Assembly: GCA_030068145.1 (NCBI GenBank)
Contig: JAPJBO010000126.1
Coordinates: 62,001-126,000 of the forward strand
DNA from: Diplonema papillatum
Lineage: Eukaryota; Euglenozoa; Diplonemea; Diplonemida; Diplonemidae
Length of the DNA: 64,000 nucleotides
Direction of reading: 5' to 3'
Positions 1 to 52,332 of the stretch are shown one piece after another. Every line of letters starts with the position of its first letter. The stretch's first letter is position 1. The translations under genes were made by a program, and so were the position numbers. A model generated the notes under the pieces. That model was given only the letters and a program-made list of their open reading frames with translations. It was not told the origin of the DNA and did no database searches.

Positions 1-352
1 TGTTACTTTCATGGGATGTTCACCGGGGAAGGGTCCGACCTAACCGTTAGTCAACAGCAACGTCGAAAAGGGGGAGGGGGAAAGAAGATAGAAAATCGGT
101 GGGGTTGACAAGCTCGTAAGTGGTTGTTTGTAGATCAGTACAACCTTAAACTACGCCTAGCACACGGCCAGGCGGTCTTTAACGAACCTCCAGTACATTA
201 AACGCAAGTCGGCAGGTCGTCATCAGACGCGGCACGAAAAGCAAACGTCGCCGACGCAGCACTTCAGCAATGCGTCCTCTTATTTACAGTGGGCACCGTA
301 CCTGAACTCAGCCCCGCTAGGCCGAGATTCCGGCTGTTCCGCAGGGCATACA
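1..352. other. 3' flank of the Penelope-like ORF, no gene seen
   Basis: No coding potential or repeat was recognised. It lies downstream of the minus-strand retroelement ORF and probably holds its 3' untranslated region. A reverse-strand CTGATGA at about 219-225 was checked as a hammerhead-ribozyme core, but no matching GAAA and stem followed. Confidence 0.4.
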
Positions 353-3300
353 TCACTCCCCGAAGTTGACGTACGTGCAGAGACGTTCGTGCACATGCAG
401 GCCTCTGAGGCCCCGGAACAATCGACCGTCCTTGGTGCGGTCGGTGAAGCAGCGCTTGCAGCGCAGTTCCGGGGGGTCCTTGGGCTGTTCAGGTGGCTGG
501 TCGTGTGCTGCCAAAGCAGCGTCGGAGGGCATGGGTTGGCAAGATGCCAGATTCGCGTCGGTACAGGGCGGACTAGAAGGTATCAGCGGGACCTGCGGTG
601 GGACTGTTGTTGCCATCATAGTAGGTGATGGCAAGCGTTCGACCACCTCGTGGGACGCATTGGGGATTCGTACGTATGCGGCGAGGTATATGTCAGTCCA
701 AGGAACGTTGTCGACGTGCAAGACTCGTTCGTCATCGAAAAGCGTCCATTGCATCCCTTGCAAGACGTATGTGACAAAATGGCCGCTTGTCGTATTTTGT
801 CCCGTGTGTACAACCACCGCGGAAAGGCGTAGTGTGCCGTCCGGCAGTCGCAGGAGGAGCGGTAGGGAAGCGTCATTCCGTAGTCTCGCACCATCGCTTG
901 CGTAAATGCCGAACTGCAACAGCAGGCACTCGGACGCCACATGCACGTTCATGGTCTCCACAACGGATCCAGCAGCTCCGCAGTCACACCTCCTCTCCGG
1001 ATTCATAATTCCACGAACACAGAATGCGTCCTCCACCGGCCTTCCACGAGGGACTTGAAGACACCGTACCAGTTGATGACGGGTGGATGTGGCGCCACAG
1101 GCGATACATCGTGTTGTTGTCGTCATCGTGTTTTCCAGGCACGTCTGGAAAAGCCGCCAATCCGGACAAGCCTCCGTCGTCTCGTCCGGCCCTAGGGAGC
1201 TGTCTGTCCTATCCAGAATTGCAACCAAAGCCTCGTGCGCGTCGTGCTGTCGCGCATCGCAGAACATTGGGAGCATGGCGAGGATTGTTTCAGCCCCTAT
1301 CCTTCGGCTGTCTTGGCTGAGCTGGCTCCTCCCCGAGCGCGAGCTTACCAGTAGGACGAAGTACGTCAAGAACTCCTTCAGGAACCCCCGGAAATTCAGA
1401 GGATTCTGCGCAAGACTGTAATACATGTTCTCGATCGGTTCCACACGCAACAAGAGCTGCAGTACCGCATTGAGAAAACAAGTATTCCCAAGGTTCGGGA
1501 GGCCGGCAGGTTCAAACGGTGACGGGTCGAACATGCGGGAGGGCCGTTGGATACAAATGACAGCTTGGCGGCCGACAGCGGGTGATGATTCCAGCATGTC
1601 AGGCACTGCATGGGACACGTCGCAGCGCCGTTTCGGTCCAGGCTGAGCAGCCTCATCGTCTCTGCGCTTGCGCTTTCCTTTAGTCGTCCCATCCTGGGGC
1701 ACAAGATCACGACGCTGCTTCGGAGCCGCAGTGGAAGGCCGATCGGGCGTATCTCGTTCCGTTCGTGTGCCAGGTCGAGGACGGTCCCTGTATCTCACGA
1801 AGGCCTTCTCAGCGAGCAGCCTCTCGACCGCTTGGTCGATGGACTCCAAGTCGGGCATCTGCAGAATGCGTTCCACTTCATGTACGAGCCACACGAAGTG
1901 CGCACGGATCTTCTCGCAGTGATCACCGAACTTCGCTTCTGGGTACGTGTCTAGTAACCATTTACGAAACCCACTTTTTAAGACACTCTTGCGGTACCCC
2001 CGTCTCATGAGCTTCAGCACCGTGTTGTTCATCTCGGTCTTAAAGTCATGGAGGTTGTTCGCAATCCTGCCGTTACGCACAAGCGCTCCGATGAGGATAC
2101 TCGACCCAAAGTTCGATGGAGCCGTGGAGAGCACGGATGTGTACGCCAAGGGCTGGTATCGGTATGCCTTCGCTTTGTCGAGGACTGACAGGCGCATGTA
2201 TCTCCTCCCGGACATCTCGGAGACTTCATGTCGAATCCGAATACCAAGGAAAGTGGCGTCCCCAACCTTGGCGTTTGTCTGTTTGTACCTCATGTTGTAC
2301 ACAGATTCCGGTGGGGGTTTTGTGCCGAAACACAACAGATCGTCAATGAAGCGGCGTGTCAGGCTAAGCAATGCCGCACGTTGCGTGTCCCCGTCTTCCA
2401 AGAGTCGCATCATGTATTTTCGCTCTTTCGCATAGCAAAAGAGGTTGGCGATGTCCGGGGAAGCGTTCGCACCCATTGGGATGCCTAGCGTCTGCCTCAT
2501 GAGAACCCTATTGACCAGAACATAGGTATTCACCAGGCAGAAAGACAAGAGGGTCTTGAGCTCCTGCGCCGAATACGCTGCTTCATGTGACCGTACCTCC
2601 GTGTTTACCTTAAAGGCGAAACAGCGCTTCTTACGAGTCGGCCCGTGTTGGCTCTTCGGACGTACTAATACGAGTCTTCCCGCGTCCACGTTCAAACGTG
2701 CAGCCTCCGCCGCGAAGGCCTCATTAATCGTGTCCGCAACCGCATTAAGAAGCTCCTCAAGCTCCAGCTGGTCATACATCGTTGTGAAGTCAAATGTACC
2801 AGCGTCCAGCTGCGCGAGTTCGTCCGCGTGTGTCTTCAGGAAGAAGGCCGTGTCGTCGCTCGACTCCGTGATCCAGAAGTACCGGTACCCAGTCGCGTTG
2901 AACCGAATGTCGTCTTCCCGCCGGAGGATGCTCATGATCGCCTTCAGCAAGCCGGTCAGGTCCAGTTGCGCGTCCGTCGTAGACGAGAACGTGGTCTTAG
3001 GGCGGGCGTCCCGTCCAGCATCGGCCGCCTCGGAGTCGGAGTCGACACAGTTCTTCCGCGAAACCCCAGCGATGTACCGCATGGACGTCACTTCCTTGTG
3101 CAGCTTCAGGGTGCCATATAGGTATGGGAGGACGTTCGATGAGTGTAATCCTTCCCGTCCGAGGTAGGCCTTGTGCCTCGCAATGACTTGTTGAGGCGTC
3201 TCTTCGCTCGGGGAGTAGTTCGTACTGTGATTGACCTTCGCGTGTAAGTCCTGGTTGTAAAATCTTTTACACACGAAGCCGAAATCATGCGAGCTCTTGT

Positions 3301-4810
3301 CCACGGGCAGGATCACGAGATGTTCCTGCAACTCCAACAGTTTTTTACGCGCTCCAGCCGTCAGCTCCGGATCGGCTCCCACCCGGGAGAGGTCAACCGT
3401 GGCTAGTATCTTCCTCCGTAGCATCCTTGCGAAGTGCGGAGGGGCGTCCTTGAATTGCTCCTCAACGAACTGGGTCACAGCTTTGTCGACCTCCCTGCAA
3501 ACGGCTTCTTCCCCACCGTCCGGTCGGAACTTGCGACCCTTGTCAAAAAGCGAAATTAGCTCGCTCGACGTTTTGAGGAGGTGTGCCTGCCCGCACGCAT
3601 GCCCTTGGATGTGGTATCCGTCTAGAAGGTAGCGTTGGCAAGGGCATTCACCAGGGGGAGGGGCCGGGGCAGCAGTTGTTTGTCGCGAAACATCCGTAAA
3701 GTTTGACAGAAGGACCCCGAGGGGAGGATTAAGCGACGTGGAAACCCTCGTGTTCACGAAGTCCGTTGAGTCCGCGAGCATTTCACGGAGTTCGGTATCG
3801 TGACGGAAAACGGCGGCTAGCTTCCTTTCATCCATCATCTTGCTCACCTGCCGTATGCAGAACCAAGGCGTTCGTGCTGCACTCTTTTTCTTCTTCGCAA
3901 GATGGTTGATCTCACTAAGCCTCGCCGTGAGCAGCTCGTCCAGGATTGCTACCTTCGGGTGCTGCAGGTGCTCAACCATGAACATTCGCACCCAGGTACG
4001 AACTCTGTAAACGCGGCTCTTCATCCACGGGTTCACGTCGTATGCCCGTAGGGTGTCCTCATCGAGTCCGAACATGTAATGCAGCTGCTTCCGGATGCCG
4101 AAGTATCGGCCTCGACTTTGGTCCACGTGGATCTGCCCATCCTTCACATGCACCCAGGCGTCTCCGCGCTCTCGAGGATATTCCGGGGTAGACTGCCCGC
4201 TGTCCGGTTTGCCCTTGAACGACGGAGCAGATCGCGGCTTCTTACCTCGCTTGTTAAAGCCGCTTGCAGTACTAACCATATTGAACTGCGGCTTTAGCCT
4301 CGCGATGAAAGCCATTTCTATCGGCTCGGCAACTTTGTCGAAGTTACCCCCAGCCGCATAGAACGCTTCTGGGACGTCGTAGAGGATGAACGCGTAAGGC
4401 GGCGAGGGGAGGTTCTGCAAGTGTCGCTTGAACCTGTCCTGCTTGGTGTTCCGGCCAGACCAATGCTTTGTAACCCGCTCCTGCATCGTCTTGCTCGTCT
4501 TGCCGATGTACAGCAGGTTGGCGTGGGCATCAACTAGTCCGTAGATGAGACCCGTAGCGCGGTAGTTGCTCGCGTCTGTCGGGCGCTGGAGTCTCATCGT
4601 CGCGTACGTGTGGTCTAGGAGCCTGCGATACCTCTTCTGGAACCGGGCCGTAAACAGCTCGCCCTGCTCTTTCCACTTCGGCCAATCTATCTGTGTCGTC
4701 TTCTCCGTTTTGCCACGTACACAGTCAGTTTGGAAGAATGGTGCGAGAAAGGGCTTTGCGAACTCCGGGCGTCGACGCATGTCCGCGTCAGCTGGTGGCA
4801 AACGTACCAT
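353..4810 (-). CDS. Penelope-like retroelement polyprotein: GIY-YIG, CxC linker, reverse transcriptase, USP deubiquitinase, zinc finger
   Basis: A single intact ORF of 1485 residues. Residues 87-178 are a GIY-YIG endonuclease (GLIY and YIG at 87-90 and 101-103, catalytic-type Glu165, Asn177). It lacks the Cys/His CCHH signature of most Penelope endonucleases. A CPC motif (389-391) and DKGRKFRP (423-430) match the CxC linker known from N-terminal-endonuclease Penelope-like elements (Chlamys/Naiad type). The reverse transcriptase has motif A FDFTTMYDQL (Asp674), motif B QTLGIPMGANASPDIANLF (from 773) and motif C FIDDL (Asp823-Asp824). After a basic stretch (KGKRKRR, 1044-1050), residues 1103-1383 form a USP (C19) domain. 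It has a Cys box NLGNTCFLNAVLQLL (Cys1111), QHDAHE (1188-1193), Cys pairs 1235/1238 and 1275/1277, a His box SGHF (His1344) and FDD (1358-1360). A CxxC...HxH...C finger ends the protein (1451-1478). All catalytic residues are present and there are no stops, so it may be active or recently active. Confidence 0.9.
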   Translation of the reverse strand: MVRLPPADADMRRRPEFAKPFLAPFFQTDCVRGKTEKTTQIDWPKWKEQGELFTARFQKRYRRLLDHTYATMRLQRPTDASNYRATGLIYGLVDAHANLLYIGKTSKTMQERVTKHWSGRNTKQDRFKRHLQNLPSPPYAFILYDVPEAFYAAGGNFDKVAEPIEMAFIARLKPQFNMVSTASGFNKRGKKPRSAPSFKGKPDSGQSTPEYPRERGDAWVHVKDGQIHVDQSRGRYFGIRKQLHYMFGLDEDTLRAYDVNPWMKSRVYRVRTWVRMFMVEHLQHPKVAILDELLTARLSEINHLAKKKKSAARTPWFCIRQVSKMMDERKLAAVFRHDTELREMLADSTDFVNTRVSTSLNPPLGVLLSNFTDVSRQTTAAPAPPPGECPCQRYLLDGYHIQGHACGQAHLLKTSSELISLFDKGRKFRPDGGEEAVCREVDKAVTQFVEEQFKDAPPHFARMLRRKILATVDLSRVGADPELTAGARKKLLELQEHLVILPVDKSSHDFGFVCKRFYNQDLHAKVNHSTNYSPSEETPQQVIARHKAYLGREGLHSSNVLPYLYGTLKLHKEVTSMRYIAGVSRKNCVDSDSEAADAGRDARPKTTFSSTTDAQLDLTGLLKAIMSILRREDDIRFNATGYRYFWITESSDDTAFFLKTHADELAQLDAGTFDFTTMYDQLELEELLNAVADTINEAFAAEAARLNVDAGRLVLVRPKSQHGPTRKKRCFAFKVNTEVRSHEAAYSAQELKTLLSFCLVNTYVLVNRVLMRQTLGIPMGANASPDIANLFCYAKERKYMMRLLEDGDTQRAALLSLTRRFIDDLLCFGTKPPPESVYNMRYKQTNAKVGDATFLGIRIRHEVSEMSGRRYMRLSVLDKAKAYRYQPLAYTSVLSTAPSNFGSSILIGALVRNGRIANNLHDFKTEMNNTVLKLMRRGYRKSVLKSGFRKWLLDTYPEAKFGDHCEKIRAHFVWLVHEVERILQMPDLESIDQAVERLLAEKAFVRYRDRPRPGTRTERDTPDRPSTAAPKQRRDLVPQDGTTKGKRKRRDDEAAQPGPKRRCDVSHAVPDMLESSPAVGRQAVICIQRPSRMFDPSPFEPAGLPNLGNTCFLNAVLQLLLRVEPIENMYYSLAQNPLNFRGFLKEFLTYFVLLVSSRSGRSQLSQDSRRIGAETILAMLPMFCDARQHDAHEALVAILDRTDSSLGPDETTEACPDWRLFQTCLENTMTTTTRCIACGATSTRHQLVRCLQVPRGRPVEDAFCVRGIMNPERRCDCGAAGSVVETMNVHVASECLLLQFGIYASDGARLRNDASLPLLLRLPDGTLRLSAVVVHTGQNTTSGHFVTYVLQGMQWTLFDDERVLHVDNVPWTDIYLAAYVRIPNASHEVVERLPSPTMMATTVPPQVPLIPSSPPCTDANLASCQPMPSDAALAAHDQPPEQPKDPPELRCKRCFTDRTKDGRLFRGLRGLHVHERLCTYVNFGE
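353..4810 (-). mobile_element. Penelope-like element (N-terminal GIY-YIG, Chlamys/Naiad-like), boundaries unresolved
   Basis: Only the ORF can be delimited. The domain order endonuclease-CxC-RT and the missing CCHH motif point to the permuted Penelope clade. I found no pseudo-LTR repeat between 1-352 and 4811-5577, no target-site duplication and no hammerhead ribozyme; lack of a canonical hammerhead is reported for this clade. The real element is probably somewhat longer than the ORF at both ends. Confidence 0.8.
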
Positions 4811-5577
4811 GTTGACCGCGAAGCTCTTGCGAGGATTGTGGGGCCGGGTCCGTATCGTAAAGGGTGGTGCTCTGTACAGGGATCGGGGTTGCCGGGGGTA
4901 GTAGAATGCGTCGGCTGAGGCGTTGACGGAACGTAACGGAACTGATTTGAATTGCTTGAGGGAGGCTGTGCACTGTACAAGGGGGTGGTAGTGGGATTGG
5001 GTGGTGAGCGGGTTGCTGTTCTGGATTATCGGCGGTACTCTTCACGCGACGTACACGGTGTTGTTGTTAGGGATGTCGGTTTGTTGCTAAGCTCAAGTCT
5101 TAGCGCGCTTTGTTCGGAGGGTGCGTTTTGTGATCTTGGTTGGGGGTTTTCCCGGTTTGTAGTAGCGAGGCCGCACGGGGGCAGGATGGCACCAAGCCTA
5201 GACTCTGCCCGGTCTCGTTGCCGATGTCTTGTGGTACAGCGGGGCGAAGTTAATACGATTTAACCGTCTCCCTACCTGTACCGGCTGCGTTTCTTCGTCG
5301 GTTGTGCCATGGGCAGTTGGTTTTCGACCTCTGTACACTGTGTCAGAGGCCTCAGATCGTAGGCGGGTTGTTTTTGCGAGAGGTCCCCCCGCGGCGTTTG
5401 AGGGGACTGGGTGGGTACGGCCGCCAATCCACCTAGACTCCGCCCCCTCATTCCGTCCTAGCATGAAGCATTGACCACGGACATCTCGGGATTGGGTCGG
5501 GGGGGTCCGGGGGGGGTGTCCCCCCCCGGGCACGAGCACCGACCTTGACTTCACCCGGACTTTACCACCCTGGCCGA
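4811..5577. other. Upstream flank of the retroelement, no gene
   Basis: No supported ORF. It contains a G-run/C-run stretch (about 5500-5530, GGGGGGGTCC then CCCCCCCC) that could fold back on itself. It may include the 5' UTR and promoter of the minus-strand retroelement, but no motif confirms that. Confidence 0.35.
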
Positions 5578-5727
5578 ACTTCGCTTCGTGCCCGAACTTT
5601 TTTTAGTACCAGCGCAGCCTGAGCGCTTAGCACCAGAACTTAGCAACGCCCGAACTTAGCATCACTCGAACTTAGCTTCACCAGAACTTAGCATTGCCCG
5701 AACTTAGCTTCGCCCCGAACTTTACCT
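5578..5727. repeat. Degenerate minisatellite around CGAACTTAGC
   Basis: About eight imperfect units of roughly 16-18 bp share the core CGAACTTAGC or AGAACTTAGC, separated by short variable GC-rich spacers (ATCACT, TTCACC, ATTGCC, TTCGCC). It sits between the retroelement flank and the first copy of the duplicated coiled-coil gene. Confidence 0.7.
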
Positions 5728-5774
5728 GCTGCCTCCAGTCTCGCCACGCGCCGGCCTTAGCCGAGCGCACGTAC

Positions 5775-6580
5775 TTTTCAAAATGCATGTGTCACTGCAA
5801 ATAGGAGACAGCCACGCACATTGCGCGCACGTGGCGGCCCTCTTCGAATTCGGTCCTGGCGGGGGAAGAGATGCTTATTGTAGTAAGTGCGTGTAACCCA
5901 GCGCGGAGGGGGAATGCGGGAAGTGCTCGGACGCGCACAGCGCCGTATAGTGCTTCCACTCATTCCACAACCTTTGACTTGTTGAGGTGTGCTCTCTCAC
6001 TCTCTCGGCCGCACCACGAAGAAAAGTAACACATACCACAGAGCACGATTGCGCCTGTCCGTCGCCGCTTGTAAACCGGCGCCAGCAGCCTTTTCCGCTC
6101 CAGCCAGCTCGGCCCAGAACCGGATCAACCCTTCGGTGCGGCAAAGACCGGCGACGACGGCGGCGCCGGAGGTCCGCGCGTCGTCGACGGCCACCGACAT
6201 TTCTCGTCCGGCCGCGTCGATCTCCGCTTGGTGCCTGCGGTAACCATCGCGGCACGTAGCGAGCTCTTGGCACCGGTCGCGCACGGTCGCGCGGGAGGCC
6301 CTGATGGCCTGTATTTCCACCCCCCGGCGCTGTATCGATTCCTTCCTCTGCTTCAGTTCTTCTTGAACGGCGGCGTCACACTCAAGCAGCTGCCTTCTGC
6401 GTTGCAGAAGCTTTTCATTCGCCACCTCCGCTTCGCGGCACGACTGCAGCAGCGCGTCCGCCGAGTCGTGCAAGCCATTCGATGCCATGCACGTGCCTCT
6501 CTCGTCGCCTCCTTTTGTGTTTGTGTGTGTATGTTGTTGTTTTTTCTTTCGAATGAGTACGCACCTGCTGTCCCGTAGGA
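5775..6580. repeat. Segmental duplication, copy A (partner 11073-11870)
   Basis: From about 5779 to 6488 the sequence is almost base-identical to 11077-11786 (constant offset of 5298 bp; one visible change near the left edge, CTGCAAATAG against CTGCAATTAG). Beyond the start codon the two copies stay alignable but diverge. The unit carries the whole two-exon gene described next. Confidence 0.92.
5875..6488 (-). CDS. Two-exon coiled-coil protein of unknown function, copy A
   Basis: Exon 1 runs 6488-6037 and exon 2 5971-5875, giving about 182 residues. The intron is 65 bp with donor GTATGT; the phases join (TG plus G makes a Trp codon). An alternative acceptor 9 nt further upstream also stays in frame, so the joint is uncertain by three residues. 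The protein is mostly charged helix with heptad-like spacing (residues about 5-130, rich in Arg, Gln and Glu), then a short aromatic tail (LWNEWKHYTAL) ending at a TAA stop. I see no signal peptide, membrane segment or known domain. A conserved CAG/GTGCGT-like donor upstream of the ATG in both copies suggests a 5' UTR intron. It is not recognised; helical complex subunits such as kinetochore or tethering proteins are possible but unsupported. Confidence 0.6.
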
Positions 6581-8142
6581 TAAAGCGGATAAATACGAGA
6601 GGAGAAAAATGTGTGCTCAGTAAGTGGTTTTGCGCCGGCCTTAATACTTCTTCGGATCCTTTGTGACATTGACTTTTCCAGCCAACGGCGTATCACGGAG
6701 AGTGTGTACCCGCGACAAGTGTTGTCGACGGCCGACCCAAGCTTGTGCAGTGCAGATGGTCGCTGCTTGGTCCGTGGCACGGCAGGTCTGGCACCACCCC
6801 CCCACTCGATTAACTCGCTTCTGAGGCCGTGGCCCGCCTTACGTGTCTCGGGAGTTACATTGCCGGATAAACTGAGCGCCGGTGGGTTATGCCGTTGTTT
6901 CCGCTGTATCGCTACGCAGAGACTGAACAAGAGAAGGGAAAGTCTTTGCAATATTTTCTCCAGATGAAATAACGTGAAGATGAGAGATTGTCACGGAAAC
7001 GTGAAGCAGTGCGAGTAGTTCCGCACAGTTGTGTCGACGGACTAGTACGCCGTGTACCTGGGCCAGTTAGTCCTCAGACACCCGGTGGTGACTGGCTGGC
7101 TACTTTGCAATTCCCCAACGACAGCACCACCACCCTGTTCCACGAGGAAGGTCTTGCCTGCGAGTTGCGGAGGTCTCAAAGCGACCAACGCTAGCACAAT
7201 CCACGTGCCGCTACTCAGCCAAATAAAGCCGTGAGGAGCGAAGACACAGCAGGCTCGGCAGTATTAGCCGGACATGAGAACTAACGTCTGCCAGCGAGTG
7301 CTGGTGAACAGCAGCACTATCAACTGGACAACAACAACTCTAAGAGCAATGCGTTGCACAACCGTAGCATACAAACATGGAGTTGGAGCTAGCACAGCTG
7401 GCCAAACTTCTCACACAGTAACTGTTGTAGCTTGCCAGACCAACCAAAACCAGCCAAGCTACCCAGAGAAAGTAAACGCAGCGGAAAGAACAGGCTCCTG
7501 TTCTTTCCGCTGTCGGACGGACTGCCAGTACGAAGCTTGTTCAGATTTGACTCTATTCCTCACAGGCTTGGGCTAGTCGGGCGACTGGTCTAGGTCTCGC
7601 CCAACCCCTCGGTCAGGTTGTGTAATGTACAGTACCTCGGTCAGCCAGGGCATTAGCTAAATTCCGTCGGCTGACGGAATTTGGAAATTGCAGGAGATTG
7701 CGGCCTGTCTTTCTTTGTCTTCCTATTTGGCGTCGTCCTCTCGGCTTCCGTTTCTGCTACAGCTAGCACGTCCCTTTGCGAGATCACTGCGTGCCGAAGT
7801 TGGAGCGCCTCCGGCGACGGCTTCGTTTTCTAACTGGAGTGTACATTCACCATCACTGCAAAACAAAACCGCTCATTCGCTTACCCTTATGTCTTAGTCG
7901 AACCCACATGTCCAAAGCACCCGACGACTGAGCAGACGGGCCAGGCAAGAGCTTGCAAGGTAGGGGAGGGTGCGAGTGGGGTGCGGGTAGGGGTCGGGTG
8001 CGGGGGGTGTATGCAAGTACTTTTGGGGAGGGGCGCGGATGCACGCAAAGCAAAGTTTGACTACTGTACTTACCTGACCAAGGTTTGGCCGAGGTTCAGC
8101 GCCAAATCGGAAAAGCAAGCTACACGCCTGATCTCGCCACTT
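6489..8142. other. Intergenic region, no supported gene
   Basis: Short ORFs occur on both strands but none shows domain character, splice-compatible neighbours or duplication-conserved frames. A self-complementary GGAAAGAACAGG...CCTGTTCTTTCC hairpin is visible at about 7480-7511. Confidence 0.4.
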
Positions 8143-8325
8143 CAAAAAAAGACAGGCGCTTCGTTTTGTTTGTGCGTGCCGGTTGATCGTTTTCCCACTT
8201 GTATTTATTTACCCTGAGTCATTTTCAGGTAAGGAATTCTGATCAACCCCAAAACACGCAGTCTGCGTCTTTTTAGCCTGCACAGTACATTGGAGGGCAA
8301 CCTGCAAGAATGTTCGTACTAAAAA
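8143..8325 (+). repeat. Dispersed repeat R1, copy 1
   Basis: It begins in an A-run followed by GACAGGCGCTTCG, continues through GTGCGTGCCGGTTGATCG and CTGATCAACC(CC)AAAACACGC, and ends near GTCTTTTTAGCCTGCACA. The same order of blocks recurs at 42891-43070 and 43503-43668 and partly at 60325-60430, always in this orientation. The inverted GTTGATC/GATCAAC pair makes a loose internal stem. No protein is recognisable. Confidence 0.75.
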
Positions 8326-8361
8326 GACTAAAACAAGAAGCAGGCAGTAGGTACAAGCCGC

Positions 8362-8525
8362 CTCTTTGCACGCGGCATGTCATGCTTTGGTTACTTCTTG
8401 CCGCGTACAGTTTGTACGTCCGCTGTGCAGTTTGACGAGCTCGAGGAGTCACCAGATGATTCGGCGCAGGCAATCCCGACTGTCCAATCACGGTCGCGAA
8501 AGGTTTGTGCCCTAAAGTGATGAGG
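8362..8525 (+). repeat. Dispersed repeat R5, copy 1 (carries a conserved short reading frame)
   Basis: It is homologous to 62375-62540. In one frame both copies encode a similar peptide beginning LFAR, then SCFG, FLPR, VQFD and EESPDD. This copy stops at about 8521-8523. Shared frame and acidic end suggest a decayed exon or retroelement ORF fragment rather than random sequence. The family is unknown. Confidence 0.5.
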
Positions 8526-9389
8526 TGGTTGACCAGGCCCCCACAAGACCTAATCCACAACACGGCTACAACACGAGGATGCAGCCCTGCTTGGGTGTGC
8601 ACTCAGCCATCACAGGGCCCCAGGCCTCGCCACTTGACCTGACACAGCTGCCACCCAGAAGGCCGCAGCGGCAGCCTTCGCATTGAAGGCGCGCGCAGCT
8701 GGAGTGTATGTAGGCAATTCCGTACAACAGCTGCATCAGGCGCAGCTTGACCCGAGAGCTCGCTAGGGGAGGTGGCGCTGCTCAACCTGTCAGTCTCACA
8801 ACTGACTGCTGCCCCAAATAATAATAAAACAAACATGTGAGACCTGTCTGACGGCCAATCACGCACGTCGAGGCAACTTTTCAGCCATCAAGGTTATTTA
8901 TAGCAAATGTGCAATGTTGACAAAGCTGGATGGATGAGAAGCTCGCCACTGCCAGCCACGGCGTTTGCATTTTCGTCCCTTATCTAGCTGACCCTAGCAG
9001 GAAATATTACGGATGCTCCCCATCGTCCCGGACGGCAGAAAGCGCTCGTAATCGAGGCAGTCCCACTTTTTAGACTTTGTGTTGCTAAAACCCCAATGAC
9101 CTGCTGTTTGGTCGTTACGCTGAAACATTCCCACTTTTGGCCAAAAACTTAGATTTGTGCACCGTTATTATGGGGCATCAGCCCTCTGGTGACCCGCTCC
9201 TTCACAAAACAGCGAAGAGGGTGGTTCTACCTGAACACCGCTGCCCGGTTCGCCGTCCGTGTTTCCGGACGGCCAGATGCCCCATGGCGAGCTCTCATTT
9301 CTTCCCATCTAGTCGTTTCTTTTGTTCCCCATCTAGGCGTCAAAACTAACTCAGGGAAGTGGAACATTATTCATCGAGCCTGTGCTGTG
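8526..9389. other. Intergenic region, nothing recognised
   Basis: No ORF here has supporting features. It forms the 3' flank of the minus-strand coiled-coil gene that ends at 9390. Confidence 0.4.
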
Positions 9390-11052
9390 TCAAAAGTCTT
9401 GGAAAAGAGCATCGAAGTGGTGCGAAGCCGACGAAGGAGCCGACTTCCTGGAAGGCCGCCGCGAGCGCTGCGCAGAAGGCAGCTCAGAGCTTCGGGGTCG
9501 TTGGTTGGAGCCAGGGTACATTCTGCGCTCGGTGAACAAGGAGCTGACATCGCTGGCTGCATCGGCGGACTTGCGGGGAGGCAGTGGCGAGGCGGCGTTG
9601 AACAGAAACTCCGCCAACGGGCCACTGGTTCTGCCGCGGGGCTTCTTTCCGGCTTCGACAGGCACCTGAAGTGCTCTCTTCTTGGGCCGTTCGCGGCTGG
9701 ATCTGTGCCTGCTGTGGTGCGAAGGATCCGAGCTCGGGTTCGACTTGTCTTTCGACTTCGACCGGACGCGGGGCTCTGACTCCCCGTTGCCTTCGTTCTT
9801 CCGATTAGCCCTTGAATCTTGACGGTCGTCTTCTGTGTACGAGTCTCTCGAGTTCTGGTCCACGAATACAGGAACTATGCCGCTTGGGACCGCGTTTGCT
9901 GTAATCCGCCTGACCGCCTCCACATGCTCGATGTCCAACCGTGCCCGTTCCGCGTCTCTTGCCTTCCCCAAGACGAGAACGCCGTTCTGGAACTCTGCCA
10001 GCATGCGCTTCTCGAGGACAGTCGTCAGTTTGTTGTGGAGCTCAGCGACTTCGCGGTCCGCGATCGCCTGCGAGGACTTGTTCATCTCGCGCTTCCGCAT
10101 CACGTCCGCGTCGACAACTCTCGCCTGGTGCTCCTTTTCCAAGGCCTCCTTCTCGTGCATTGCTTTGTAGGCGCGTGCTCTGTCGTTGACCTCCGTACCA
10201 TCCGCCAACGCCTGCTGTTCCTGCCCGAAGCGACTGTCAAGCTCGAGCAACACTTTCACATCAGCCGCATGCCGCTTCTCATGTTCAACCTGCTGCAACT
10301 CCTCGACCTCAGCCTGGGCCGCGGTTTGCTCAGCCAGCAAGGCTGCCACCTGCTCTTCCCTGCGTGCTTTTTCTTCGAGCACACTCGCCTCCTCCGCGGA
10401 AATCGCTCTTTCTTCATCCTCTTCGTCCAGCTCTGCTCCGTGCTCAGTGTCACGGTCCTTTTTGCATTCCACTCCCATCGTCTCCTTCTTCAGCATGGCC
10501 TCCTGAACAGCCGCAGCCCATTTCCTCTCACCGTCCGCTGCCGTATTCCCCTCCACCTCGTTCAAAGCGGCTGCGGCTACCACGCGTGTGCCTTCCAGAT
10601 CCTCTTGGTCGGACCTGCGGGGGGGAGAAAGTAGGTCAGTCAAGCCCACTACAGCACCAACCCCACCTATCAAAAAGCAACACCAGCACGACAGGGAGCG
10701 TGCAAAAACCTTTTTCGGATAAAGACGCATGTCGACTGAGTCCGATCGCAGAATTACCATTTAAGGTACTGTTCTTCCCTTTCGCTCCCTCGTGCGTGGC
10801 TTTCTGCCGAATAGCCGATAGCCGAATGAACAATTCACAACACAACACAGTAACACGGCTGCCATACTGTGTAACTGCGCGCTTCCACCGCTGACGATCG
10901 GCGGCTACCTGATTAGCCAATGCTTGCGAATACTTCTCAGCGGCAGCTACCCGCGGCGAATACTGTGTCGCTACCTTCTTCAGCTGTGCGTGATGGAGCG
11001 TCCTGTGAAATTGTTGCGAATCAGTGCCAGCATATTTTTCTATTGGGAACAT
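9390..11052 (-). CDS. Two-exon coiled-coil protein with basic Ser/Arg-rich tail, function unknown
   Basis: Exon 1 is 11052-10868 and exon 2 10614-9390, for about 469 residues. The intron (253 bp) has donor CA/GTATGG and a strong acceptor, a pyrimidine tract ending CCCCGCAG; phase 2 on both sides makes a Gln codon. Residues about 20-320 are charged helix (LKKVATQ..., then Glu/Ala-rich heptads with EEKARREEQVAALLAEQ), with an acidic DEEDEE patch. The tail (about 330-440) is basic and Ser/Arg-rich (SRHRSSRERPKKR), which suggests nuclear or RNA-associated location by inference only. No catalytic motif is seen. A longer open frame without the intron would start at 10760, but its N-terminus reads through the pyrimidine tract, so the spliced model is preferred. 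The start ATG lies about 120 bp from the end of the neighbouring copy-B gene, on the same strand. Confidence 0.6.
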
Positions 11053-11072
11053 GAACCTGCTGTCAGCATTAT

Positions 11073-11870
11073 TTTTCGAAATGCATGTGTCACTGCAATT
11101 AGGAGACAGCCACGCACATTGCGCGCACGTGGCGGCCCTCTTCGAATTCGGTCCTGGCGGGGGAAGAGATGCTTATTGTAGTAAGTGCGTGTAACCCAGC
11201 GCGGAGGGGGAATGCGGGAAGTGCTCGGACGCGCACAGCGCCGTATAGTGCTTCCACTCATTCCACAACCTTTGACTTGTTGAGGTGTGCTCTCTCACTC
11301 TCTCGGCCGCACCACGAAGAAAAGTAACACATACCACAGAGCACGATTGCGCCTGTCCGTCGCCGCTTGTAAACCGGCGCCAGCAGCCTTTTCCGCTCCA
11401 GCCAGCTCGGCCCAGAACCGGATCAACCCTTCGGTGCGGCAAAGACCGGCGACGACGGCGGCGCCGGAGGTCCGCGCGTCGTCGACGGCCACCGACATTT
11501 CTCGTCCGGCCGCGTCGATCTCCGCTTGGTGCCTGCGGTAACCATCGCGGCACGTAGCGAGCTCTTGGCACCGGTCGCGCACGGTCGCGCGGGAGGCCCT
11601 GATGGCCTGTATTTCCACCCCCCGGCGCTGTATCGATTCCTTCCTCTGCTTCAGTTCTTCTTGAACGGCGGCGTCACACTCAAGCAGCTGCCTTCTGCGT
11701 TGCAGAAGCTTTTCATTCGCCACCTCCGCTTCGCGGCACGACTGCAGCAGCGCGTCCGCCGAGTCGTGCAAGCCATTCGATGCCATGCTCTCGTATTTTT
11801 CTTCGCCTCCTTTTGTGTGTGTTGTGTGTATGTGTGCTTTCTCCTATCGGTTCAATGACGCACCTGCTTT
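11073..11870. repeat. Segmental duplication, copy B (partner 5775-6580)
   Basis: Same unit as copy A, offset by 5298 bp and almost identical from 11077 to 11786. Past the start codon it becomes alignable but diverged (shared GCCTCCTTTTGTGT and ACGCACCTGCT blocks). Identity is much higher in coding and intron sequence than just upstream, so either the duplication breakpoint or a gene-conversion boundary lies near the ATG. Confidence 0.92.
11173..11786 (-). CDS. Two-exon coiled-coil protein of unknown function, copy B
   Basis: Exons 11786-11335 and 11269-11173, with the same 65-bp intron and the same predicted 182-residue protein as the copy at 5875-6488. I see no difference between the two predicted proteins. 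The copy sits immediately downstream of the ATG of the 9390-11052 gene (about 120 bp away, same strand). Upstream it is followed by an (AGAG)n tract and then the macrosatellite. Two identical intron-containing genes mean a recent DNA duplication, not retroposition. Confidence 0.6.
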
Positions 11871-12111
11871 GCTGGAAACATAACTTAAAGAGAGAGAGGG
11901 AGAGAGAGACGAGTTGGAGTGCAGGGACCGTCTCTCCGAGGAGTTTCGGTCGCCTCACTACTACCGTGTACTTCTAAGGCGGGCGTAGGTCGTTCCGTCG
12001 GAGGCACGGTGCGGGCCGCTGCCCCGTTACCGAGGGTGACGGCGTCGACGTTGACACAGCGGGGGCCGTTCTGGCTGGCAGGCGAGCCCGTCTCGCGGGG
12101 GAGGACCGCCT
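11787..12111. other. Short spacer before the macrosatellite
   Basis: It contains a GA-rich microsatellite (about 11888-11912). A minus-strand open stretch (11885 to about 12115) reads into the first satellite unit and looks mildly protein-like (Pro/Thr-rich), but it has no domain and no defined start. Confidence 0.3.
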
Positions 12112-14966
12112 TGAAAGTCGCAGGCTCTTTTCTTCTTGGCAGTTGCACGGCCTACGGAGGCTAGCGCCTTGATGGGAAAATTCAGCTTCCATTGAAAGAA
12201 GGGCACGTCTTGCAGGGACTCAGGCACGGCATCGTTCCAACGGTCGCTGAGCACACCCGGTGCAGAGTGTCACTTGAAGGACACGAGCGGCACGGGTCAA
12301 CTTCACCAAACGCGCCCTCCAAAGGTTGAGGAAGAGGAGTTTGGTGCTCCGGGCGGCCTCCTTGACCTTTTCAGCAGCGCGCTGTGCTCCTTGTCGTTCG
12401 GGTACGCAAGTTCGCATATGCGTGCCCATGCAGACTTACCGTATTCGGAGTCGACGAGACGTTCCTTCAGCCGATGAGGAGATCCGTGAAAGATAGACCC
12501 GGGGACCAATAGTATGGGCCTGAACAAGATGCAGAGCACCAGGCTATCTGTAGTCCATCCGTGATCACAAACCCAAGGAAAAGCGAACCAAAACTCTGCG
12601 GAGCCAAAAAGGTCGAACCTACCGGCGCAATTATGTTCCCTCGTCGGATGTAAAAGGTTCTGCGGGCATTGTTGAAAGTCGCAGGCTCTTTTCTTCTTGG
12701 CAGTTGCACGGCCTACGGAGGCTAGCGCCTTGATGGGAAAATTCAGCTTCCATTGAAAGAAGGGCACGTCTTGCAGGGACTCAGGCACGGCATCGTTCCA
12801 ACGGTCGCTACGCCGCAGCTGCTGGCACACCCGGTGCAGAGTGTCACTTGAAGGACACGAGCGGCACGGGTCAACTTCACCAAACGCGCCCTCCAAAGGT
12901 TGAGGAAGAGGAGTTTGGTGCTCCGGGCGGCCTCCTTGACCTTTTCAGCAGCGCGCTGTGCTTCTTGTCGTTCGGGTACGCAAGTTCGCATATGCGTGCC
13001 CATGCAGACTCACCGTATTCGGAGTCGACTAGACGTTCCTTCAGCCGATGAGGAGATCCGTGAAAGATAGACCCGGGGACCAATAGTATGGGCCTGAACA
13101 AGATGCAGAGCACCAGGCTATCTGTAGTCCATCCGTGATCACAAACCCAAGGAAAAGCGAACCAAAACTCTGCGGAGCCAAAAAGGTCGAACCTACCGGC
13201 GCAATTATGTTCCCTCGTCGGATGTAAAAGGTTCTGCGGGCATTGTTGAAAGTCGCAGGCTCTTTTCTTCTTGGCAGTTGCACGGCCTACGGAGGCTAGC
13301 GCCTTGATGGGAAAATTCAGCTTCCATTGAAAGAAGGGCACGTCTTGCAGGGACTCAGGCACGGCATCGTTCCAACGGTCGCTACGCCGCAGCTGCTGGC
13401 ACACCCGGTGCAGAGTGTCACTTGAAGGACACGAGCGGCACGGGTCAACTTCACCAAACGCGCCCTCCAAAGGTTGAGGAAGAGGAGTTTGGTGCTCCGG
13501 GCGGCCTCCTTGACCTTTTCAGCAGCGCGCTGTGCTTCTTGTCGTTCGGGTACGCAAGTTCGCATATGCGTGCCCATGCAGACTCACCGTATTCGGAGTC
13601 GACTAGACGTTCCTTCAGCCGATGAGGAGATCCGTGAAAGATAGACCCGGGGACCAATAGTATGGGCCTGAACAAGATGCAGAGCACCAGGCTATCTGTA
13701 GTCCATCCGTGATCACAAACCCAAGGAAAAGCGAACCAAAACTCTGCGGAGCCAAAAAGGTCGAACCTACCGGCGCAATTATGTTCCCTCGTCGGATGTA
13801 AAAGGTTCTGCGGGCATTGTTGAAAGTCGCAGGCTCTTTTCTTCTTGGCAGTTGCACGGCCTACGGAGGCTAGCGCCTTGATGGGAAAATTCAGCTTCCA
13901 TTGAAAGAAGGGCACGTCTTGCAGGGACTCAGGCACGGCATCGTTCCAACGGTCGCTACGCCGCAGCTGCTGGCACACCCGGTGCAGAGTGTCACTTGAA
14001 GGACACGAGCGGCACGGGTCAACTTCACCAAACGCGCCCTCCAAAGGTTGAGGAAGAGGAGTTTGGTGCTCCGGGCGGCCTCCTTGACCTTTTCAGCAGC
14101 GCGCTGTGCTTCTTGTCGTTCGGGTACGCAAGTTCGCATATGCGTGCCCATGCAGACTCACCGTATTCGGAGTCGACTAGACGTTCCTTCAGCCGATGAG
14201 GAGATCCGTGAAAGATAGACCCGGGGACCAATAGTATGGGCCTGAACAAGATGCAGAGCACCAGGCTATCTGTAGTCCATCCGTGATCACAAACCCAAGG
14301 AAAAGCGAACCAAAACTCTGCGGAGCCAAAAAGGTCGAACCTACCGGCGCAATTATGTTCCCTCGTCGGATGTAAAAGGTTCTGCGGGCATTGTTGAAAG
14401 TCGCAGGCTCTTTTCTTCTTGGCAGTTGCACGGCCTACGGAGGCTAGCGCCTTGATGGGAAAATTCAGCTTCCATTGAAAGAAGGGCACGTCTTGCAGGG
14501 ACTCAGGCACGGCATCGTTCCAACGGTCGCTACGCCGCAGCTGCTGGCACACCCGGTGCAGAGTGTCACTTGAAGGACACGAGCGGCACGGGTCAACTTC
14601 ACCAAACGCGCCCTCCAAAGGTTGAGGAAGAGGAGTTTGGTGCTCCGGGCGGCCTCCTTGACCTTTTCAGCAGCGCGCTGTGCTTCTTGTCGTTCGGGTA
14701 CGCAAGTTCGCATATGCGTGCCCATGCAGACTCACCGTATTCGGAGTCGACTAGACGTTCCTTCAGCCGATGAGGAGATCCGTGAAAGATAGACCCGGGG
14801 ACCAATAGTATGGGCCTGAACAAGATGCAGAGCACCAGGCTATCTGTAGTCCATCCGTGATCACAAACCCAAGGAAAAGCGAACCAAAACTCTGCGGAGC
14901 CAAAAAGGTCGAACCTACCGGCGCAATTATGTTCCCTCGTCGGATGTAAAAGGTTCTGCGGGCATT
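12112..14966. repeat. 574-bp macrosatellite, five tandem units
   Basis: Units begin with TTGAAAGTCGCAGGCTC at about 12112, 12673, 13247, 13821 and 14395. Spacing is 561, 574, 574 and 574 bp; the last unit ends near 14966 with GGGCATTG. The first unit lacks about 13 bp at the CTACGCCGCAGCTGCTGG site and carries three other visible changes (CTCCTTGTCG, CTTACCG, CGACGAG). The remaining units look identical. Each unit holds an open minus-strand frame of 197 codons, but 574 is not a multiple of three, so the units do not join into one repeat protein. The helical frame inside the unit (EAQRAAEKVKEAARSTKLL) suggests it may derive from a gene fragment. Confidence 0.95.
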
Positions 14967-15796
14967 GACTCTGGAGAAAACTTCCGATTTTTTTTTCCGT
15001 TTCCACGATTTCCATTTCCACGTGTGTCCACGTCCCGAACACTGCCACGTTCAAACTTTTTCGTCTTTGGGTCCATTCTTCGCAGATCTTTCCATCGCAG
15101 CTGATCTCAAGCAAAAATTCGTCGAAAAAGGTCTGGTACTGTGGACCGGCTTCCAGGAGCCAGGATCAGGCCCACAGGCGTACTTGAGAAGCAACCAGAC
15201 TCCGTCGGGGAGCTGGGGTGGGGGGGCGTTCAACTCAAATTTCTGCTCAAAAAACCGAGATCGGAGCCAAGAATATGGTTTCAACACTTTTTTTTTCTTC
15301 GTTTTTTTGAGGCTTTTGAGTGGTGAAATCTGAAATCTTTTTTCCAGTCACTGGGAGCCACTGAGACACTGAGTGACTCAGCCACTGGTAGCCACCAGCC
15401 ACTATCCCCCACTGTTACAGGTGTCTCCTTGGTGGGGGACTCGAAACTATGAAATAAGAGTGTGAGAAGGTTCGTAGAGCTTCGCAGATTCCCTCGGAAA
15501 TCCATGAAGCTTGAGTTTTTTCACCGCACGAACTGTGTCGCTGTACCGAGCTATGGGACAGAGCCGACCGGCGAAGTCTCCCTGCGCGTGCGAGCCGTGG
15601 CCAACGGCGGCGGCTTGCGCGGCGGCAACAGCGTCGAAGAGTGCAACAGGCGTTTTACCTTCAGGAGGGCCAATACCTCGACAGGGCAGTACCGAACTGG
15701 CACGCCGTCGGGCCCAATCGGAGCAAAGGGGGCAACAGCTCGACCCGCTCAAAGGTGAGGTGTCTACTGCACGTTCCTTTTTGCCTTGGACGTAGT
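14967..15796. other. Region after the macrosatellite, no supported gene
   Basis: Rich in short direct repeats (GAGCCACTGAG, CAGCCACTGGTAGCCACCAGCCACT at about 15346-15402) and T-runs. Minus-strand frames at 15447-15752 are open but featureless. Confidence 0.3.
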
Positions 15797-20053: not shown

Positions 20054-20221
20054 TGTGGTGACACATTGACGATCCTGTTGACCATGTCCACAGGCCCCGG
20101 ATGATGCAGTCGTCTCTTTTTGAAGGAAGGGTTGGCCCTTGAAACGCTACACGCGGGGACAGGGTTAACTATCCTGGAAAGCTGCACTTTCTTCGTGGTA
20201 GGGTGTCTTGTGGATGTGCAT
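20054..20221 (+). repeat. Dispersed 168-bp repeat R6, copy 1 (partner 52165-52332)
   Basis: About 168 bp from GTGGTGACACATTGACGATC to CTTGTGGATGTGCAT, about 95% identical to 52165-52332, 32 kb away and in the same orientation. Both edges are abrupt. No ORF is shared. Size and sharp ends suggest a SINE- or MITE-like unit, but no A-box, B-box or terminal inverted repeat was recognised. Confidence 0.8.
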
Positions 20222-45665: not shown

Positions 45666-46189
45666 GACTAAGGAGGCTAGAGGGGGAGAAAAAAAAAACA
45701 AAAAAACACACTAGTAAGGCCAATCACTAGTCATTTTAAAGTGAACTTACTAGTAAGAAATCTTACTAGTAATATGACTAGTGCCACTAGTCATTCTTAC
45801 TAGTGCCACTAGTAAGAATGACTAGTGCACTAGTAAGAATGACTAGTGCACTAGTAAGAATGACTAGTGCACTAGTCATTTTTGCTAGTGTTTTACACAG
45901 TAAAGTCCATTTTTAGGCGGTGGATATGGCGTGGGTGTCCGACCCACGCTCGAATACTGTCCCGCAGGTTCGTCCTGCCGATGTTGTGCACGCAGAAACA
46001 TGAATGGTGAACACTACGTTGTCAAGCCACCTGCCGTAAGTGCGCACAACGTTTCCAGTCGCCTGGCAGAGGAGTTTCCCAAGAGCCTCTTGTGTTGTGA
46101 GGCAATGTTGCAGCGGAAGCCCTGCGCATATGTTGTGGAGGACAGCCCCGTGGTCGGGCCAAGCTCGCCATTCACTGCTGTAGAGAGCC

Positions 46190-46640
46190 AGCTGGGCACA
46201 CTGATGCATAGACATGCCGAATCGCATTATGTTCCCTGCAATGATGGCACCGATAGCGCGCGCTGTCGGTGCATGGTATGCATTCATTGTTGTTTTCCCC
46301 TGCGGTGTTTCGTGAGTGATAAGGCTGGCGATGCGGGACCGTACGAGAATCATACTACACAAAGTTACGTACGAACTATTGCAAAACAAAATGAGCATGT
46401 GTTGACGATGATGTCAGCCCTGATGGACAGGAGTCGGGGTCTCGGCCAGAGAGGAGGGCGCGTTGCAATAGTTCTTACGTAGTATGATTCTCGTACGGTC
46501 CCACATCGCCAGCCTGGAAACACCGCAGGGGGAAAACAACAATCGATGCATACCATGCACCGACAGCGCGCGCTATCGGTGGCATCATTGCAGAGAACAG
46601 AATGCGATTCGGCATGTCTATGCGTCAGTGAGCCCAGCTG
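46190..46640. repeat. Internal inverted duplication (hairpin) inside the long-TIR transposon
   Basis: 46190-46385 (CAGCTGGGCACACTGATGCAT ... AACTATTGC) is repeated in reverse complement at 46464-46640 (GCAATAGTT ... GCCCAGCTGGG), with a 78-bp spacer and small indels (for example an extra GTGAGTGATAAG in the left copy). RNA from this region would fold into a stem of about 180 bp. Confidence 0.85.
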
Positions 46641-46673
46641 GGCTCGCTAATTAATAGCGAACTTGGCCTGACC

Positions 46674-47317
46674 ATGCGGCTGTCCTACAACACCCTTGCT
46701 GCACGCGAAGCAGGGTTCAAGGCGATGGCCGACGAGTTGGTCGGGGATACCCCGAAGGCAATTTCGTTCCTGCTGTCCAAGTTTCCACTGGAGCAGGGTG
46801 GCTTTTTGCCCACCCGCAGTGGTTGTGACAATGGACGCGTACAAACCAGGCAACGCCTTCCATGGGGCAACAGGGAGGCAGCGTCTTGCTGTTGGACTGT
46901 CCGGGGACCTCAAGGCGACGCGGTTTCTTACTGTGTGCGATAAGCGGAAGCCTGCCTTCCACTCATGGTGGATTCAGCTGCCTGCCGCATCTGAGCGCTG
47001 TTCAGGAAAGTACGTTCCGCAAGAACAATGCAATCATTCCTCTGAGTCGATTTGTGTTTGGTGGTGACCACGCAGAATTGTGGTCGCTCTTTCGAGGCGT
47101 GGGCGGTGGCGGGCACCGAAGTGCCTTTTGTGCAACCTGCATTGAGACGCGGTTGGCACACCTGCACAGATGCAAACGGCTTAGCATCCAGGAAATGCAT
47201 GCGCAGGGCTTCCACTGCAACATTGCCGCCCGTATCACGGAACCAGCGCATGCCATCACACCAGCCTTGCACGATGTGAAGGGCATGTTACGGCTCGTGA
47301 TCCCTTCCGGATGCTAG
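46674..47317 (+). pseudogene. Transposon-encoded protein, first part, frame-broken
   Basis: Protein-like sequence switches frame at least twice: MRLSYNTLAAREAGFKAMAD (from 46674), then TMDAYKPGNAFHGATGRQRL (about 46830-46930), then SRFVFGGDHAELWSLFRG to LHDVKGMLRLVIPSGC with a TAG at 47315-47317. A Cys pair (FCATC) and Asp/Glu-bearing segments could belong to a transposase core, but I cannot name the family. Confidence 0.4.
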
Positions 47318-48010: not shown

Positions 48011-48579
48011 ATGCACGCAGAAGGGATGCCCACACGGGTGGAAGGTAGTCTTACCTCCTCTGAATTCAGCACTCTATGCCACATGGCCCTTTCTTCCGTT
48101 GTTCCCCCCTCCCCCACCCATCACACCCTGAGCATTCCAAACACGTTCAATTCCCCACCCATCACACCCCAGACTTCGGGCCATGCTTATCCCGTTCACT
48201 TGTTCTTCTCGGCAACCTGTTGTGTCCACCATTCATGTTGCTGCGTGCACAACAGCGGCAGGACGAACCTGCGGAACAGTATTCGAGCGTGGGTCGGACA
48301 CCCACACCATATCCGCCGCCTAAAAATGGACTTTACTGTGTAAAACACTAGCAAAAATGACAAGTGCACTAGTCATTCTTACTAGTGCACTAGTCATTCT
48401 TACTAGTGCCACTAGTAAGAATGACTAGTGGCACTAGTAAGAATGACGAGTGGCACTAGTAAGACATTTTCACTAGTAATTTTACTAGTAAGAACACTGA
48501 ATTCCTAATGACTAGTGCACCGTGCACCCCCCAGAAATCCCGAGAAATCTTTTTTGTACCTAACAATTTTCCCCCGCGA

Positions 48580-49879: not shown

Positions 49880-50050
49880 CACAAAGCATTCCGCATAGTT
49901 GTTTGGGCTTTTCCGCATAGTTGCGCGTGTTGCGCATAGTTGCGCATAGTTGTTTGGGCTGTTCCGCATACTTTGGGGTCGTTCCGCATAGTTGCGCATA
50001 GTTGCGCATAGTTGTTTGGGTTGTTCCGTACTTGCGCATAGTTTTCGGGG
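49880..50050. repeat. Inverted partner of the 48.7-kb minisatellite
   Basis: CCGCATAGTTGTTTGGGCT and TTGCGCATAGTTGCGCATAG are the reverse complement of units at 48693-49212. The two blocks flank a unique core of about 670 bp (49213-49879), making a large imperfect stem-loop arrangement. Confidence 0.9.
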
Positions 50051-50052
50051 AC

Positions 50053-50368
50053 CAAAATTGGACGAAAATTGGACCAAAATGGGACCAAAATTGGACCAAA
50101 ATTGGACCAAAATTGGACCAAAATTGGACGAAAATTGGACCAAAATTGGACCAAAATTGGACCAAAATTGGACCAAAATTGGACCAAAATTGGACCAAAA
50201 TTGGACCAAAATTGGACCAAAATTGGACCAAAATTGGACCAAAATTGGACCAAAATTGGACCAAAATTGGACCAAAATTGGACCAAAATTGGACCAAAAT
50301 TGGACCAAAATTGGACCAAAATTGGACCAAAATTGGACCAAAATTGGACCAAAATTGGACCAAAAATG
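50053..50368. repeat. 11-bp tandem array (ACCAAAATTGG), about 28 units
   Basis: Nearly perfect repetition, with variants at the left end (GACGAAAATTGG and one unit with ATGGG). Each unit contains CCAAAATTGG, which fits the CArG-box consensus CC(A/T)6GG bound by SRF-type MADS proteins. A G-run (50380-50390) follows. The long ORFs read through it on both strands are artefacts of the 11-bp period. Confidence 0.95.
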
Positions 50369-50454
50369 GACCAGTATTAGGGGGGGGGGGGTACCCACCC
50401 ACCCCGGCCACGGCCCCAGGGTGGGACATTGTCCGTCGGTATTCCAAAAACGTC

Positions 50455-52083: not shown

Positions 52084-52164
52084 GTCGCGAGCCTAATTAC
52101 AGTTGTAGATGGAGGGTTCAATGTCTTGTTGGCTGACTCATAATCAGAGAGGGAGAGAGAGACA

Positions 52165-52332
52165 GTGGTGACACATTGACGATCCTGTTGACCATGTCCA
52201 CAGGCCCCGGATGATGCAGTCGTCTCTTTTTGAAGGAAGGGTTGACCCTTGAAACGCTTCACGCGGGGACAGGGTTAACTATCCTGGAAAGCTGCACTTT
52301 CTTCGTGTAGTAGGGTGTCTTGTGGATGTGCA
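52165..52332 (+). repeat. Dispersed 168-bp repeat R6, copy 2 (partner 20054-20221)
   Basis: About 95% identical to the copy near GAPDH, same strand, with GTGTAGTAGGG for GTGGTAGGG near its right end. A (GA)n microsatellite (52148-52162) touches its left edge. Confidence 0.8.

Follow-up and report, generated by a model that had tools for sequence, protein, structure and literature searches.

The 64-kb stretch of the Diplonema papillatum genome analysed here (the window) contains one open reading frame (ORF) of 1485 amino acids on the reverse strand, in which a GIY-YIG endonuclease (EN), a CxC motif, a reverse transcriptase (RT), a ubiquitin-specific protease (USP) and a C-terminal zinc finger (ZnF) follow one another in a single frame. 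The initial annotation had described this ORF as a fusion of a retroelement RT with a USP, further carrying the GIY-YIG, CxC and zinc finger parts, and this layout is confirmed. The protein corresponds to a database entry named 'putative ubiquitin carboxyl-terminal hydrolase 16' (a cluster of 11 members). The features of the element copy are collected in Table 1.

Table 1. Features of the element copy, in window positions, with the evidence for each
Feature	Position	Strand	Basis or remark
Element copy, part within the window	1..5495	-	DNA search of own genome; L009 mapped to other copies
5' junction of the element copy	about 5495-5499	-	Comparison with other copies
3' end of the element	~295 bases past window position 1, near contig position 61706	-	Mapping to other copies
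ORF EN-CxC-RT-USP-ZnF	353..4810	-	Frame common to 29 copies; indel-free in 27/29
GIY-YIG nuclease, residues 80-185	4256..4573	-	GLIY 87-90, YIG 101-103, QERV 110-113, PIEMAF 163-168
CxC motif CPC, residues 389-391	3638..3646	-	Pattern
Telomerase-like RT region as folded, residues 395-1000	1811..3628	-	Predicted fold
USP (peptidase C19) domain, residues 1098-1388	647..1519	-	UCH profile, fold
Catalytic Cys1111	1478..1480	-	Invariant across 7 rows of alignment A4
Catalytic His1344	779..781	-	Invariant across 7 rows of alignment A4
Asp1359-Asp1360	731..736	-	Asp1360 is the invariant column in A4
C-terminal C2HC zinc finger, residues 1451-1478	377..460	-	Pattern; resembles the five fingers of P0016
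3' UTR, first 352 bases	1..352	-	Remainder outside the window; terminus ...AACAACG adjoins poly-C
C-rich host DNA adjoining the 5' junction (window copy)	5496..5530	-	ACCCCCCC (8 bases) also matches the 3' flank; indistinguishable from the C run

A stretch of 800 bases that contains an open frame occurs twice in the window, 97% alike (5772-6569 and 11070-11868). Its start at 5772 was considered as the 5' border of the element and rejected, since the other copies place this border at ~5495. Elsewhere, the window contains a tandem array at 12111-14967, with a 574-base unit, copies that are 97-100% alike and a repeated 213-codon open frame, as well as a minisatellite at 50049-50373, made of 29.5 copies of the 11-base unit GGACCAAAATT. 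Long inverted repeats are found at 46131-46692 and at 45725-46017 with 48219-48517 (77% and 88%, respectively), and these are possibly a DNA transposon. A piece of 28S rRNA is recognised by Rfam at 52152-52364, with a second stretch, 97.6% alike, at 20055-20221; about 3600 such pieces are mentioned for the D. papillatum genome in the available part of the genome paper (PMC10161547).

Class of the element and its genomic copies

The GIY-YIG profile matches N-terminal to the RT with 23.0 bits, against a cut-off of 22.6. No cysteine is present in the GIY-YIG stretch (residues 80-185), where the Arg of QERV and the Glu of PIEMAF are what we take to be the catalytic residues of the nuclease. The CxC motif sits between the nuclease and the RT, an arrangement that is part of the definition of permuted Penelope-like elements. 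The CxC pattern is also present in the related proteins P0002, P0003, P0008, P0015, P0016 and P0018, while the same pattern search gave no match in P0010, P0013, P0014, P0017 and P0019. By predicted fold, the RT is closest to telomerase RT; the search of profile A3 against solved sequences matched only USP8 and NOC3, with telomerase absent from the matches. With regard to structured RNAs, no hammerhead or other known RNA came up at E values as high as 1 in L010, L011 and L040, and the known-RNA search of window positions 1-12000 returned one match, at chance level. The best reading of these features is that of a permuted Penelope-like retroelement, with the nuclease first, followed by the CxC motif and a telomerase-like RT.

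The genome was searched at the DNA level with window positions 1-5771 as query and the best 29 of 2352 first-look candidates were scored, which favours long copies. This search gave 31 rows, corresponding to 29 near-identical copies that reach the window end, the window's own included, and 2 pieces that do not. The copies begin at graded positions, between query base 277 (10 copies) and 2533, which amounts to a graded 5' truncation, whereas the end of the frame is reached in 29/29 copies, 27 of them with no indel, and no stop variants were seen in the counted domains of the 29. The fusion recurs in further copies, and none of the 29 DNA-verified copies ends before residue 1080.

Penelope-like elements have an insertion bias towards simple repeats, and such a bias is seen here for poly-C. 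In 26 of 28 copies, at least 5 consecutive C follow the 3' end within 4 bases, compared with 0.56% of sampled window positions, and the remaining 2 junctions have a shorter C run; this count covers L009-L037 with the omission of L033, the 3' end of which was not recognised, and of the fragment L038. Furthermore, 15 of 17 readable 5' flanks contain at least 6 consecutive C, against 1.9% of window positions. Flank stretches of at least 15 letters are common to 6/17 own pairs and 41/272 mismatched pairs, and those with at least 6 non-C letters to 3/17 and 9/272, respectively. Plain target-site duplications, of 37 and 38 bases, are present in two copies, L031 and L010, and most of the others are inseparable from the C run because poly-C matches itself.

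Nine full-length copies (L011-L019) have further upstream sequence in common, extending past the 1500-base flank, with tandem repeats of about 224 bases in their 5' region (first 1372 bases), shifted by one unit in L016. The complete element thus exceeds 7 kb, and the copy in the window is truncated at its 5' end. At L029/L038 and at L026, partial copies lie in tandem against full ones, and none is seen within the 1500-base flanks of the other loci. The EN-RT-USP-ZnF unit has accordingly been inserted many times and recently, with copying at poly-C, and the element has been recently mobile.

The USP domain and its retention

The UCH profile matches the USP with an E value of 5.1e-23 and 82.4 bits, well above the cut-off of 23.9. 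The active-site residues are all in place, as proposed from the first reading of the sequence, which had named Cys1111, His1344 and Asp1359/1360; Asp1360 is the invariant one of the two aspartates. The domain takes the USP fold, and this fold, the catalytic residues and two finger Cys pairs match those of USP12/USP46, USP1 and USP36, at an identity of only about 17-24% to the listed solved USPs. Judged by its residues and predicted fold, the domain should cleave ubiquitin. The USP tree, with 16 rows and 8 host loci, settled neither the host source of the USP nor the number of captures.

The USP is kept in all 29 near-identical DNA-verified copies. A PF00443 profile scan of the genome, in which 149 of 935 candidates were scored and the rows counted by eye, gives counts that are lower bounds: at least 54 rows score like the window family (43 at E 4.9e-22 and 11 at 3.2e-22), at least 41 rows, at E 2.3e-19, score like a second family, and at least 17 lie between the families. 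No stops were found inside the USP in the rows scoring like either family or between them. The element identity of these rows is DNA-verified for the 29 copies and for L039, L040 and L041, and is assumed from equal or near scores for the others.

The second family, P0003 (10 members), is 67% identical to the window protein over the aligned length and has the identical layout, including the USP. Between the two families, the USP is 59% identical over 291 residues with zero gaps; the linkers have 39-40% identity before the USP, and 38% after it with 21 gap columns. By the NG86 method, the comparison of the window family (A) with the second family (B) gives a dN of 0.305, a dS of 2.23 and a dN/dS of 0.137 for the USP, and a dN of 0.565, a dS of 1.25 and a dN/dS of 0.45 for the linker before it, with a dN of 0.134 and a dS of 1.31 for the EN and a dN of 0.148 and a dS of 4.9 for the RT; the inter-family dS values (1.2 to 4.9) are saturated or nearly so, and the ratios are therefore rough. 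A third copy, C17 (L041), gives a USP dN/dS of 0.144 against family A and of 0.288 against family B (dS 0.07). In this closer pair, the linker ratios are 0.337 before the USP and 0.08 after it, on few changes, so that the pair does not set the USP apart. From copy to copy within family A, there are 3 variable USP sites (1 nonsynonymous and 2 synonymous), too few to judge.

When neutral evolution was simulated to an equal protein identity, with indels disregarded, 9 of 2000 runs left the USP without a stop. For the zinc finger this was the case in 781 of 2000 runs, and the test is uninformative there. Judged from these sequence comparisons, the USP is under purifying selection; the neutral drift that the initial annotation had named as a refutation is not seen between the families, with the dS partly saturated.

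Related proteins and alternative accounts of the USP

The search with P0008 retrieved three Diplonema proteins and five others. P0015, a transcript tagged 'Rhum', which probably stands for the diplonemid Rhynchopus humris, combines an RT with a UCH match (E 2.5e-21). P0016 carries an RT, five C2HC fingers of the window type and a UCH match (E 3.4e-15). P0010, retrieved when the USP served as query, combines an RT from a different lineage with a UCH match (E 2.1e-33), and may be a chimera, as it comes from one short contig. The RTs of the USP-bearing relatives are only about 33-36% identical to that of P0008 or of the window. P0008 itself contains a USP-like stretch, GHYYTVLRENDVW, recognised by eye, and P0014, a Diplonema protein of the P0008-type family, shows the start of a UCH match with an E value of 0.0013 on the piece, below the cut-off. 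In the RT tree, which takes in only proteins found in this analysis, the window families group with P0016 and P0015 (96/97), and the P0008-type proteins and P0018 join this group at a fork drawn open, several of the branches being long. No relatives were found in IMG/VR by the patterns used.

Other domains lie behind the RT in some relatives. In P0017 (18 members), a GIY-YIG match below the cut-off and an RT are present, and behind the RT there are a DnaJ domain and a stretch that resembles an OTU domain (residues 1050-1240 and 1459-1521). The OTU profile scores 17.7 bits on the piece, below its cut-off of 23.3; the PDB matches are led by OTU proteases (E 0.006), and the sequence contains DGNCLF and HYD, which we take to be the OTU Cys and His motifs. 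On this sequence evidence, P0017 probably carries an OTU domain behind the RT, in place of the USP. In P0018, the RT is accompanied by a C-terminal stretch (residues 820-960) with MCG, GNY and GQHW that, in our view, resembles a Josephin domain; this assignment is not supported, with no Pfam match and no Josephin among the 5 weak PDB matches. P0019 stops after the RT.

Gene capture by mobile elements is common, and the USP could be a passenger, that is, a host exon which was captured downstream of the RT, has stayed in frame and plays no role in transposition. This account would fit the faster divergence of the USP than of the RT (59% against 79% identity between the families) and the existence of annotated proteins without a USP. 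However, the inter-family constraint makes a neutral passenger unlikely, and the catalytic residues are kept in distant relatives, with the USP present alongside RTs as diverged as those described above. A passenger is therefore considered improbable, even though it is the strongest of the alternatives.

The USP could also be kept for binding ubiquitin or a partner rather than for catalysis, tethering the RT complex to ubiquitinated chromatin. Activity does not follow from a conserved fold alone, tethering could also be a task of the adjacent zinc finger, and the region of the third catalytic residue of P0016 aligns poorly in one alignment. On the other hand, the invariance of the Cys, His and Asp columns across the 7 rows of A4 would be needless for a pure binder, and this role appears slightly less probable than that of a passenger.

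A further account starts from the annotated proteins. P0004, P0005, P0006 and P0009 are annotated without a USP, and P0002 (7 cluster members) without most of it. Nevertheless, the loci of the first four (L011, L028, L023 and L030, respectively), which the DNA check covered with P0002 and P0007 outside it, hold a complete USP in 4/4 cases, of 291/291 residues and with no stop, between or behind the exons of the models. The USPs missing from these four proteins are thus due to model introns or spliced messages, and not to deletions. In the window DNA, the join of the model P0005 coincides with a GT that follows residue 1004 and an AG that precedes residue 1443, and the joins of both P0005 and P0009 fall on GT...AG pairs, skipping the USP and joining the zinc finger. 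Removal of the stretch from 1004 to 1443 would take out the post-RT linker and the USP, leaving EN-RT-ZnF, so that splicing could give two products, a shorter one that does the copying and a full-length one whose USP acts in trans on host proteins. Against this, most of the USP-skipping models also fuse host exons, and repeats produce spurious introns in D. papillatum gene models, according to the part of the genome paper at hand (PMC10161547). Two products of this kind appear less probable again than a binding role.

Pieces of the window element or of related ones are fused to other sequences in P0005, P0006, P0007, P0009, P0013 and P0014, and the names on such fusion proteins include RRP12, kinesin, Mg/H exchanger and STIP1. 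These database entries represent either elements that lie within introns or faulty gene models.

Although gene models across these repeats are frequently in error, an artefact of assembly or gene modelling as the origin of the RT-USP join is rejected as very improbable indeed, since the frame is read straight from the DNA and recurs in 29 insertions with different flanks, in the second family (L040) and, as a related fusion, in an independent transcript assembly from another source (P0015).

Proposed role of the USP and comparison with known systems

The explanation that we favour, and hold to be probable, is that of a recently mobile permuted Penelope-like retrotransposon, the USP of which was gained before the split of the two families, is selectively kept and is predicted to be active in cis. 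The USP would already have been part of the single protein when the two compared Diplonema families separated, and purifying selection would have kept it there. The GIY-YIG domain would nick the poly-C target, a role assigned to it because its family does so. The USP would be an active deubiquitinase working in cis, on the ribonucleoprotein around the element's own RNA. The proteins of retroelements usually work on the RNA that encodes them, and the likeliest substrates would therefore be the element's own complex and the proteins at the target. Ubiquitin may be stripped from the RT complex, which would then escape from the proteasome, and we lean towards this option with a little less than even confidence. 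It may instead be stripped from chromatin or repair proteins at the nicked poly-C, allowing target-primed synthesis to finish, an option that we rate somewhat lower; the balance is left to something else. Protection from the proteasome and action on ubiquitinated histones had been put forward as possible roles in the initial annotation.

The probable OTU of P0017, found where the window element has a USP, would argue that ubiquitin removal itself is selected. More tentatively, and with clear reservation, telomerase-related retroelements of the permuted type might include ubiquitin removal as a fixed stage of their life cycle, the activity rather than one domain being selected. Different lineages would then have taken different folds, namely the USP in diplonemids and perhaps separately in P0010, the OTU in P0017 and possibly a Josephin-like domain in P0018.

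Retroelements are believed to be restrained by the ubiquitin systems of their hosts, and the sequence suggests that this element interferes with the host ubiquitin system while copying itself. If this is true, the element would be a natural tool for showing how target-primed reverse transcription is held in check by the ubiquitin system, and a deubiquitinase in the RT's own chain would make host restraint directly testable via one residue, Cys1111. With this analysis, a permuted Penelope-like element is moreover placed in the genome of a diplonemid; its copies are fresh, its poly-C target is clear and its truncations form a clean series.

Penelope-like elements with an N-terminal GIY-YIG nuclease, Naiad and Chlamys, are reportedly described in Craig et al. 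2021. They resemble the window element in having the nuclease first, the CxC motif, a telomerase-related RT and insertion at simple repeats, with no hammerhead ribozyme found, and tandem partial copies, seen here at L029/L038 and L026, may be a further point in common; a nuclease without Cys is likewise common to Chlamys and the window element. They differ in that the RT of the window element is followed by a USP and a C2HC finger, its target is a single base (poly-C) and its host is a diplonemid. In turn, USP12/USP46, USP1 and USP36 are unlike the window USP, which lies within a retroelement protein and has the low identity to solved USPs given above.

The author of the initial annotation was not aware of a USP in a Penelope-like element. 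No such report was found in the literature searched, Craig et al. 2021 lying outside that scope, and none is present in the portions covered of PMC6431247, PMC2836005, PMC12910113, PMC11167929, PMC9033089 and PMC12477816; the words 'Penelope' and 'ubiquitin' are also absent from the main text of the D. papillatum genome paper, as far as it was available (PMC10161547). USPs as such are not new to transposons, since a DNA transposase that bears a peptidase C19 domain is on record: in the part of PMC2836005 available, a Trichomonas transposase protein is described with such a domain.

Among retroelements, the Burro giant LTR retrotransposons have motifs tied to ubiquitination, MATH/TRAF and BIR, and are similar to the window element in carrying extra ubiquitination-linked domains, but they belong to the LTR class and no USP is named for them in the portion of the source covered (PMC6431247). 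The same partial source that describes the Trichomonas protein reports Ginger1 transposases with OTU or Ulp1, some Mutator elements with Ulp1 and some Helitrons with OTU, and its authors put forward an involvement of the ubiquitin pathway in transposition (PMC2836005). These systems have in common with the window element a ubiquitin or SUMO protease within a transposition protein. Nonetheless, Ginger1, Helitron, Mutator and the Trichomonas element are, in the part of that source covered, DNA transposons without an RT (PMC2836005), whereas the window protease shares its chain with a telomerase-like RT.
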